A stretch of 64,000 nucleotides of DNA from Nocardiopsis potens DSM 45234 (GTDB lineage Bacteria > Actinomycetota > Actinomycetes > Streptosporangiales > Streptosporangiaceae). The number at the start of each line of letters is the position of its first letter. Position 1 is the stretch's first letter. Location: NCBI RefSeq assembly GCF_000341105.1, contig NZ_ANBB01000001.1, forward strand, positions 1 through 64,000, in the 5' to 3' direction. Position numbers and translations under genes: made by a program. Shown here piece by piece: positions 1 through 55,163 of this stretch. The notes under the pieces are model-generated. The model made no database searches. It was not told the origin of the DNA and saw only the letters and a program-made list of their open reading frames with translations.

Positions 1-858
1 CGGGGCCGGCTACCCGTGAAACCGCTGCCCCCCTCTGACCTCGGTGAATACGCAGGGTGATGGTGGTGCGGGGTGCCCTGCGCACCGCGAGAGCACCCCG
101 GTGATTCCCGGGCGCGCATCCCGGCCCGGAACAGGCCTCTAGAGGCCCGATTGGGGCCGTTCGGGCCGGTGTTGGGGGGTTCGAGCCGCCCGCAAGGCCG
201 CAGAGCAGGGGGCCGGAACCCGGGCAGGGGCGGGGCGGGGGCGAGATGTCGCTTTTGCCCTGCCAGGAGGGCCCACCTTGGCCACTCCGGGTAACCGGAG
301 AGGGGGCAGTGGGGGCTTCGGGGCTACTACTCGCTGGTAGATGTAATCGGGGTGCTGCGGAGGTGCGCAGGGCACCCCCGCCCCTGCCCGATCCTCGCCG
401 CAAACCAGGCATATAGGGATAAGGCCACCCCCGGCGGGGGCACGTGCCGAGCCGGGCCGGTGAACGCGGCACCCCGCCCCCTCCCGCCCTCGCCGCCCGT
501 CTTGACCTTCGCTCCGCGATGCGCCGCACCCGACCGACCAGCCGGTCCCCCTCCCTGCCTTCGCCGCCCGCTTGAACCCCGGCCCCGTGGGGCGCCGCGC
601 CCGGGTGAGACGCCCGGCCCCGCCCCTACCGCCGCCGTCGCCGCCCGTCTTGACCTTCGCTCCGCGATGCGCCGCGCCTGACCGACCGGCCGGCCGGTGC
701 CCCTCCCTGCCGTCGCCGCTGCTTGAACCTTCGCTCTGCGGGACGCCGCGCCCGACCGACCGGCCGCTCCTCCTCCCCTCCTGCCCTCTGGTGTGCGGTG
801 TTGCAGCGGACGCTGGAAACCAGCCCGCGTTGTTCGGGTCGCAGCGTCAAGATCATCG
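1..858. repeat. half copy of a composite non-coding repeat element
   Basis: The stretch has no credible gene. It is an inverted, diverged copy (about four in five bases alike by eye) of 53504-54510. In order it holds a flank running to the window edge, a 305-bp core with 28-bp inverted ends (72-376), and four short repeat units whose CTTGAMC starts lie at 501, 571, 649 and 722. It closes with an outer end motif at 838-858 that matches the ends of the other copy in 17 of 21 bases. The segment GTGTTGCAGCGGAC near 797 is also shared. Position 1 cuts the element, so its second arm may lie outside the window. Confidence 0.8.
72..376. mobile_element. 305-bp MITE-like core with 28-bp terminal inverted repeats
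   Basis: The arms are 72-99 and 349-376. Both read inward from GGTGCCCTGCGCACC, and the inner third of one arm is diverged. The related core at 54146-54451 is 306 bp, in opposite orientation, with 27 of 28 arm positions paired. Internal blocks are kept in both copies, for example GGCGAGATGTCGCTTTTGCC and CTACTCGCTGGTAGATGT. No transposase is encoded. It could be a non-autonomous transposon or a structured RNA or DNA element. Confidence 0.6.
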
Positions 859-39248: not shown

Positions 39249-39314
39249 CGATGGTCTTGACGTTGCGGGGGTATTCCGAGCGCTCGGAATACCCCCGCAA
39301 CGTCAAGACCATCG
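39249..39314. repeat. perfect 66-bp palindrome
   Basis: Arms 39249-39281 and 39282-39314 are exact reverse complements with no spacer. The centre is CCGAGCGCTCGG. It lies 15 bp after the SDR stop and could end transcription from either side, but it has no T-tract and is far longer than other terminator stems here (12-15 bp). Confidence 0.97.
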
Positions 39315-52888: not shown

Positions 52889-53479
52889 ATGGCCAACCGG
52901 GTCGCCGGAGCGCGCCGCGCGGAGATCCTGCGCGCGGCGGCCGAACTGTTCGCGGCGCGCGGCTACCACGGCGCCTCGATCGAGGACCTGGGGCGCGCGG
53001 TGGGCACCAGCGGCCCCGCGCTCTACCGGCACTTCCCGGGCAAGGAGGCGCTGCTCGGCGCGATGCTGCTGGACATCAGCGAGCGGCTGGCCGCGCAGGG
53101 CGCCGAGCTGGCCGCCGCGGCCGCCGGGCCCGGCGCCGCGCTGGACGCCCTGCTCCGCGGGCACATCGACTTCGCGCTGAACGAGCCGGCCCTGATCACC
53201 GTGCACGACCGCGAACTCGGCAACGTCCCCGATCCGGACCGCCGCCGGATCCGCAGCCTGCAGCGCGGCTACACCGAGCGGTGGGTCGCGGTCCTGGCGG
53301 AGCTGCGCCCCGGCGTCCCCGCGGAGACCCTGCGGGCCGGCGTGCACGCGGTCTTCGGGCTGCTCAACTCCACCCCGCACAGCGCGGGCCGGCTCGCCCC
53401 GGAGCGGATGTCGGCGCTGCTGTTCCGGATGGGCCGGGCCGCCCTGCTCTCCGCCGCGGAGGACGCGCCCGCCGGCTGA
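52889..53479 (+). CDS. TetR-family regulator divergent from the acyl-CoA operon
   Basis: A 196-residue repressor with an N-terminal helix-turn-helix (ARGYHGASIEDLGRAVGTSGPALYRHF, about residues 21-47) and an AcrR-type ligand domain. Position and the two palindromes in the intergenic gap indicate that it controls the carboxylase/dehydrogenase operon and possibly itself, probably in response to an acyl-CoA. GAGGGG 7 bases before ATG 52889 fixes the start; a longer frame from 52790 would run through the operator region and is unlikely. Confidence 0.88.
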   Translation: MANRVAGARRAEILRAAAELFAARGYHGASIEDLGRAVGTSGPALYRHFPGKEALLGAMLLDISERLAAQGAELAAAAAGPGAALDALLRGHIDFALNEPALITVHDRELGNVPDPDRRRIRSLQRGYTERWVAVLAELRPGVPAETLRAGVHAVFGLLNSTPHSAGRLAPERMSALLFRMGRAALLSAAEDAPAG

Positions 53480-53503
53480 GCACTCCCGCCCCGCCCCCGA
53501 CCC

Positions 53504-55081
53504 CGATGACCTCGGCGCTGCGGCCCTATCGGAGGCCCTATCGGAGCGGGTGGTTTCCAGTGTCCGCTGCAACACCGCCCACCAGAGGATCAGAGGGGAG
53601 GGGGACCGGCCGGTCGGTCGGGCGCGGCGCATCGCGGAGCGAAGGTTCAAGACGGGCGGCGACGGCGGAGGTAGGGGCGGGGCGGAGGCGATCGCCCGGG
53701 CGCGGCGTTCCACGGGGCGGGGGTTCAAGCGGGCGGCGAGGGCGGGAGGGGGACCGGCCGGTCGGGCGCGGCGCATCGCGGAGCGAAGGTCCAGACGGGC
53801 GGCGACGGCGGCGGTAGGGGCGGGGCCGGGCGCCTCACCCGGGCGCGGCGCCCCACGGGGCCGGGGTTCAGGCAGGCGGCGACGGCGGCAGCGAGGGGAC
53901 CGGCCGGCCGGTCGGGCGCGGCGCCCCGCAGAGCGAAGGTCCAGACGGGCGGCGACGGCAGCGGTAGGGACGGGGCCGGGCGCCTCACCCGGGCGCGGCG
54001 CCTCACGGGGCGGGGGTTCAAGCGGACGGCGGGGGCGGGGAGGGGGCCGGGCGCCGCGTTCACCGGCCAGCTTCGGCACGTGCTCCCACCGGGGGTGGTC
54101 ATATCCCGTATGCCGGGTTTTCGGCGAGGGTCGGGCAGGGGTGGGGGCGCCCTGCGCACTGCGAGAGCACCCCGATGACATCTACCAGCGAGTAGTAATC
54201 CCTGAGGCCCCCGTCGCCCTCTCCCTGGTCACCCAGAGTGGCCAAGGCGGGCCCTCCTGGCAGGGCAAAAGCGACATCTCGCCCCCGTACCGCCCCTTCC
54301 CGGGTTCCGGCCCCCTGCATCCCGATCTTCCGGGCGGCTCGAACCCCCGAACACCGGCCCGATCAGGGCGATTCAGGCCTCCCGGGGGCCGATCCGGGCC
54401 GGGATGCGCGCCCGGGAATCCCCGGGGTGCTCTCGCGGTGCGCAGGGCGCCCTACCCTGCCATCACCCTCCGTATTCACCCAGGTCAGGGAGGTGCGGTG
54501 GTTGCCCGGCAGCCGGCCCCGGCGCCCGAGGCAACGCGGGAACGGCGAACCCGCCACCCCGGCCCACCCCGACCGCCCCCACCCGCTCTGCCGCACCCGA
54601 CCGACCGGCCGGTGCCCACCACCGCCCTCGCCGCCTGCTTGAACCCTCACCTCGTGGAGCTCGCGCCCGGCCGGAGCGCCCGGCCACGCCCCTACCGCTG
54701 CCGTCGCCGCCCGTCTTGACCTCCGCTCCGCGAGACGCCGCACTCGACCGACCGGCCGGTCCCCACCGCCGCCGTCGCCGCCGGTCTGAACCTTCGCTCC
54801 GCGAGGCGCCGCGCCCGGGCGACCGCCTCCGCCCCGCCCCCACCGCTGCCGTCGCCGCTGCTTGAACCTTCGCTCCGCGATGCGCCGCGCCCGACCGACC
54901 GGCCGGTCCCCCTCCCGCCCTCGCCGCCCGCTTGAACCTCCGCCCCGTGGGGCGTCGCGCTCGGGTGAGGCGCTCGGTCGGGGCACTTCCGGCCCCTCAC
55001 CCCTCGCCCCTCCCGGGTTCCTCGTTACAACGGCCACTTGACGGCAAGCGCTCTGACCGGGCCGCAGCGCCGAGGTCATCG
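53504..55081. repeat. complete 1.58-kb concentric inverted repeat element
   Basis: The two ends, 53504-53524 and 55061-55081, are perfect 21-bp inverted repeats. Inside lie six repeat units in reverse orientation (53645 to 54015, spacing 66-78 bp), the 306-bp core (54146-54451), and five units in forward orientation (54638, 54715, 54786, 54861, 54931). The centre of the whole (54292) and of the core (54298) nearly coincide. All reading frames are low-complexity Arg/Ala/Pro/Gly, differ between copies and lack ribosome binding sites, so it is taken as non-coding. It sits exactly between the TetR stop (53479) and the next gene's stop (55164). Confidence 0.85.
54146..54451. mobile_element. 306-bp MITE-like core, second copy
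   Basis: Arms 54146-54173 and 54424-54451 pair in 27 of 28 positions. It is the reverse-oriented relative of 72-376. The better arm pairing suggests a younger or maintained copy. Confidence 0.65.
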
Positions 55082-55163
55082 CGTGCTGGGGCGCGGGGGG
55101 CCGAGGAAAGGGAAAAGGCCGGCGGCCGGCCCGCGGAGCGCGAGCCGGCCGCCGGTTCCCGGT

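Follow-up and report, generated by a model that had tools for sequence, protein, structure and literature searches.

A dispersed, gene-free repeat family with inverted arrays and IS30-like termini in Nocardiopsis potens and a sister species

Here we report that a 1.6-kb segment of the Nocardiopsis potens DSM 45234 genome, lying inside the window (the whole 64,000-nucleotide stretch that was analysed, which is contig 1 from base 1), is one member of a large dispersed family that is probably an IS30-derived, high-copy, non-coding mobile element of the foldback type, homogenised by recombination. In its plan, an asymmetric core is followed on either side by an outward array, a terminus (T1 on one side, T2 on the other) and a palindrome arm. 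The copies are dispersed at gene 3' ends, with arrays of variable length and with the core in either orientation relative to the termini. The element is ~1.3-1.6 kb long and its more than 100 copies account for some 2% of the genome, a size and number that are unusual for a bacterial repeat without genes. Below, G000 is the N. potens genome, G004 that of a sister species and G002 that of another congener, while L numbers denote sampled loci.

Architecture of the element

Re-measurement bears out the nested plan of 53504-55081. The features are as follows.

53504..53548, + strand: left arm of the target palindrome (CGATGACCTCGGCGCTGCGGCC...GAGCG); its last 2 bp, CG, would be one copy of a putative 2-bp duplication
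53549..53588, + strand: terminus T1 (GGTGGTTTCCAGTGTCCGCTGCAACACCGC...), an IS30-like inverted repeat
53596..54053, - strand: left array, ~6 units (A and B types, ~74 nt), directed away from the core
54040..54560, + strand: conserved centre, used as query, which recurs in dispersed copies over nearly its whole length
54146..54174, + strand: left inverted repeat of the core
54175..54423, + strand: interior of the core, asymmetric and containing strongly conserved blocks such as ACATCTACCAGCGAGTAGTA, CACCCAGAGTGGCC and GCGACATCTCGCC
54424..54452, - strand: right inverted repeat of the core, which hardly varies among G000 copies
54590..54977, + strand: right array, ~5-6 units, in orientation opposite to the left array
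55012..55048, - strand: terminus T2 (reverse complement CTTGCCGTCAAGTGGCCGTTGTAACGAGGAACCCGGG), IS30-like
55049..55081, - strand: right arm of the target palindrome; its first bases, CG, would be the second copy of the putative duplication
1..858, - strand: second copy of the element, with core, one array, T1 (785-820) and palindrome arm (837-858)
39250..39313, no strand: bare target palindrome of 64 bp in the same window, with no element inside

The outer arms (53505-53525 and 55060-55080) are perfect inverted repeats of 21 bp, and a 12-bp tandem duplication lies within the left palindrome arm (53504-53548) at 53522-53545. The two arrays (~53596-54053 and 54590-54977) are opposed, show a 74/148-nt periodicity and form long mutual inverted repeats. 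The long arm-to-arm inverted matches, among them one of 56 nt at 100% identity and one of 103 nt at 86%, far exceed chance. Between them lies a core of ~306 bp whose inverted ends differ by 1 mismatch in ~29 positions.

The sequence-only reading of this DNA had described a concentric structure in which opposed arrays surround a core with inverted ends of its own, and this plan is common to 131 copies in two genomes. The same reading had taken the perfect 21-bp repeats to be the ends of the element; the inverted repeats are real, but they are the arms of a separate 64-bp palindrome family and not the termini. Likewise, what it saw at 1-858 as a diverged half copy is indeed a second copy, but a normal one cut by the start of the contig. 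Several G000 contigs start or end within element copies (e.g., C1:1, C27:10, C28:269), where the assembly is broken because the element repeats.

Copy number, distribution and conservation

A 521-bp query from the centre of the element found near full-length matches across the N. potens genome, and a 28-nt core pattern allowing up to 3 mismatches matched it 124 times (reversed control, 0). The segment is thus not single-copy, and the core recurs as a unit, on which the sequence-only reading had staked its case. The same pattern had 5 matches in G004 and none in four other congeners, while the exact pattern had no match in the genome_contigs collection, from which records close to N. potens may be absent. 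A core sequence profile (305 positions, without structure) recovered 58 copies in G004, all across essentially the whole profile. This family-wide profile search covered 81 genomes, and it found 0 copies in the 79 others (~67 further genera and one congener).

The arrays point consistently outward: among 111 copies, 1174 of 1182 units are directed away from the core and 8 are reversed. Unit numbers reach a maximum of 13 per side and are weakly correlated between left and right (r 0.26), which fits the earlier suggestion of an element that collects repeat units. The core, by comparison, is kept whole in 102 of 105 copies away from contig edges. Positions at least 99% conserved in G000 show 93% identity in the diverged copies of G004, where the least conserved positions show 42%. 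A pattern lying within the core served to retrieve ~60 of the G000 copies, which inflates the apparent conservation of one 28-nt block; the first 40 copies (from the 521-bp query) and the G004 profile copies are unbiased there.

Since conserved sequence blocks have been kept, the core may be needed in cis by the element or be useful to the host; this conservation is higher than a plain passenger needs and counts against our preferred explanation. An unlikely alternative, though one that this conservation favours, is a REP- or BIME-like host element for chromosome organisation or transcription ends, in which the core would bind a cellular protein, selection would maintain the copies and the IS30 ends would merely record the route by which some of them arrived. 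The retention of the core just described, which extends to 58 of 58 sister-species matches, and the occurrence of the same conserved blocks in different subfamilies are in its favour, as is the even spread of copies along the large G004 chromosome (KS p 0.69). Because the core stays intact in nearly every copy, the chromosome-structure site suggested in the sequence-only reading also keeps some probability. Against any general role of this kind stands the absence of the element from four other congeners and from the remaining genomes of the family covered by the search.

Target palindrome and termini

The outer repeat GATGATCTTGACGYTGCGGCC also stands alone, as the arms of a 64-bp palindrome. 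G000 and G004 each carry dozens of these palindromes and other congeners next to none, and the examples examined have the centre ...CTGTCGGAGCGCTCCGACAG.... This palindrome makes up a separate dispersed family resembling REPs, and its two arms tend to vary together. Element copies with preserved ends sit inside it, reading ...GAGCG, then T1 (GGTGGTTTCCAGTGTCCGYTGCAACACCGC) or T2 (CTTGTCGTCAAGTGGCCGTTGCAACGAGGAAC), with CGCTC... opposite. The arms thus read GAG-CG ... CG-CTC around the element as against GAGCGCTC in the bare palindrome, which is consistent with a 2-bp CG target duplication, although the symmetry of the palindrome limits proof of it.

Within the tolerance of our search, two recognisable ends were present in 22 of the 111 copies, one in 20 and none in 69. 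For those 69 we infer transposition and do not see it, because no T1 or T2 falls within that tolerance. Nearly all two-ended copies (20 of 22) have one T1 and one T2, the other 2 having two T1, and the core lies in both orders relative to T1 and T2 (12:8). All 50 of the 50 well-matched termini that were checked adjoin palindrome arms or clear variants of them.

By alignment, the two unequal termini resemble the IS30 inverted repeats of the genus. T1 agrees with the IS30-family repeats of G002 and G004 at 21-24 of ~36 positions; its 24/36 match to the G002 ends was reached by 0 of 2000 shuffles, and its weakest comparison by 4 of 2000. T2 reaches up to 23/36, is weaker against some IS30 ends and is similar to only some of them. 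IS30 genes and relics were found in the sister species and in G002, and at L126 in G004 an IS30-family transposase gene, split by another insertion sequence, starts just inside a palindrome arm. A C-terminal relic of an IS30 transposase runs into T2 and a palindrome arm at L130 in G004, and likewise, by eye, at L035 in G000. No IS30 transposase was found in the N. potens genome at E<=0.001, and a search with HTH_38 returned mostly long unrelated reading frames.

The IS30 genes at L126 (G004 C1:1271400-1274600) and L127 (G004 C1:4734800-4738200) are each split by an insertion sequence (96% identical); its reading frame contains TVGIDPHKHVHVAVAVDDEG and looks by eye like an IS110-type transposase.

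IS30 forms circles, has junctions spaced by 2 bp and targets nearly palindromic hot spots (PMC9333248). Insertion sequences are known to target REP palindromes (PMC1525189). Based on these observations, we suggest that an IS30-family transposase acting in trans would copy the cassette by way of T1 and T2, and that each insertion would duplicate 2 bp at the central CG of a REP-like palindrome. The dispersed copies, the unoccupied orthologous site described below, the IS30-like termini, the palindromic target and the lack of any open reading frame under selection agree with the earlier proposal of a non-autonomous mobile element.

Site occupancy and gene context

In the sister species the window site is unoccupied: a ~300-nt unrelated spacer replaces the 1.6-kb element (L195 6978-7276 against window 53473-55110) between flanks that are 87-96% identical (left ~95%, right 87-92%). 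Either insertion in the N. potens lineage or loss in the sister species would account for this difference, and loss could still be the event because the unoccupied site is an unrelated spacer and not an intact bare palindrome. That the genes are ~95% identical and the spacer unrelated suggests, as far as this alignment goes, a fast turnover of spacers in the species pair.

Other sites are shared. About 10 of 33 G004 copies occupy the same site as one of 98 sampled G000 copies (flanks 85-97% identical), and at three or more shared sites (at least 3) the core is inverted between the species. Such sharing might reflect coincidences of target choice, with independent insertions from a diverse pool hitting the same palindromes again and no gene conversion at all, an account that we regard as improbable. 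The restriction of targets to a limited number of palindromes and the high diversity of the copies would suit it, as would the junctions at some shared sites, which are indistinct (e.g., L070/L137 and L213/L178). At L062/L154, L048/L031 and L220/L182, on the other hand, flank identity reaches the same array edge, without palindrome or termini, and junctions elsewhere are less clear.

Copies lie between 43 convergent, 41 tandem and 5 divergent gene pairs (p about 1e-8, convergent vs divergent), at a median distance of 93 nt from stop codons as placed by a simple codon-model gene caller. This placement at gene 3' ends is also what a host element acting at such ends would show, but the palindrome target would give the same placement, and occupancy of sites differs between the sister species. 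Placement can be explained by the palindrome target or by selection against promoter disruption.

Recombination between copies

At the nine shared sites that allowed comparison, the similarity of the orthologous core ranks between 47th and 96th among 98, no higher than that of random G000 copies. Linkage between variable core sites decays from an r2 of 0.15 for sites 1-3 nt apart to one of 0.017 for sites 41-60 nt apart, close to the null of 0.010. Some G004 copies have cores that are 99-100% identical, outer arrays that are often 65-95% identical and unrelated flanks; these pairs were chosen for similar cores, and the centring on the core is partly due to that choice. In both genomes, copies that are otherwise ~80% identical share stretches of 150-800 nt, in register, with 96-100% identity, and among such near-identical tracts, from pairs not chosen by core, 113 overlap the core and 31 lie in an arm only, shorter arrays being harder to match in register.

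As judged from these alignments, the copies are mosaics of one another, and the locus identity of the core has evidently been erased between the sister species. Taken together, these results are strong evidence of gene conversion between copies. The short range of linkage within the core and the tracts centred on it while outer arrays diverged both argue against repeated insertion from a diverse pool.

For the preferred IS30-derived element, we propose that inserted copies would recombine by homology with one another, and that the inverted arrays of a single copy would do likewise, so that cores are converted and flipped. Such conversion is probably promoted by the length and inversion of the arrays, by way of foldback or cruciform formation, breakage and repair. 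It is conceivable, if on balance rather doubtful, that the core is itself an active recombination-promoting DNA site, and that inverted arrays and core together make each copy a hot spot of breakage and conversion. If so, more than 100 dispersed sites would evolve as one recombining population, and the core would be kept by its recombination activity and not by transposition or benefit to the host.

Coding and RNA readings

A coding function for the core was considered and rejected: all three codon phases vary to almost the same degree, and the lengths do not keep a reading frame, not being divisible by three. Plasmid or phage origin was likewise set aside, with no match found, and 15-mer matches in viral contigs occur in the number expected by chance for so short a pattern.

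The earlier suggestion of a large structured RNA, here taken as a family of non-coding RNA genes built on the core, has folding in its favour, since on either strand the core folds more stably than shuffles do (z -4.4 and -3.9), an effect due mostly to its inverted ends. On neither strand, however, are compensatory changes more frequent than in shuffles, no long-range paired covariation was seen in the core, no Rfam match exceeds the gathering score, and there is no tRNA-like structure in the segment. We consider the suggestion very improbable and do not uphold it.

Comparison with known systems

The element is like IS30 insertion sequences, their passengers and MITEs in its termini, which resemble those of the same genus, in its palindromic target and, putatively, in a pattern of 2-bp duplication. 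Unlike them, it has no transposase, consists of a 1.3-kb non-coding cassette with opposed arrays and a conserved core, and is present in very high copy number. A miniature form was seen at L093 (G000 C9:76200-76742, positions 229-400), where T2 and T1 lie ~160 bp apart with one array unit and without a core.

The Drosophila FB element is a foldback element in which inverted arms of variable-number tandem units surround a middle, and most of its copies are non-autonomous. The foldback element Galileo has the same long inverted arms around a middle and is also mostly non-autonomous (PMC4168063). The present element shares long inverted arms with variable tandem units, but the arms are not its extreme termini, as T1, T2 and the palindrome arms lie outside the arrays wherever ends are preserved. 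It also differs from foldback elements in being bacterial, in having short IS30-like termini and in its asymmetric conserved core that flips.

With REP, REPIN and BIME sequences (PMC3116915, PMC2817692; PMC1525189) the target has in common that it is palindromic, extragenic and dispersed, lies at the ends of genes and draws in insertion sequences. The element itself is ~20 times longer than a REP, carries arrays and a core, and is not a short (20-100 bp) palindromic unit; only its target palindrome is REP-like. A literature search confined to open-licence papers turned up no bacterial repeat family of this kind. The element combines IS30-type targeting, foldback architecture and clear concerted evolution of dispersed sites, and offers a natural test of the rate of conversion between dispersed repeats in bacterial genomes and of the survival of long inverted arrays in a chromosome. 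Satellite-like arrays in animal mobile elements (e.g., in the Pacific oyster, PMC7492417) are comparable as tandem arrays within a dispersed non-autonomous element, from which the present one differs in its two inverted arrays, its bacterial host and its IS30 context.
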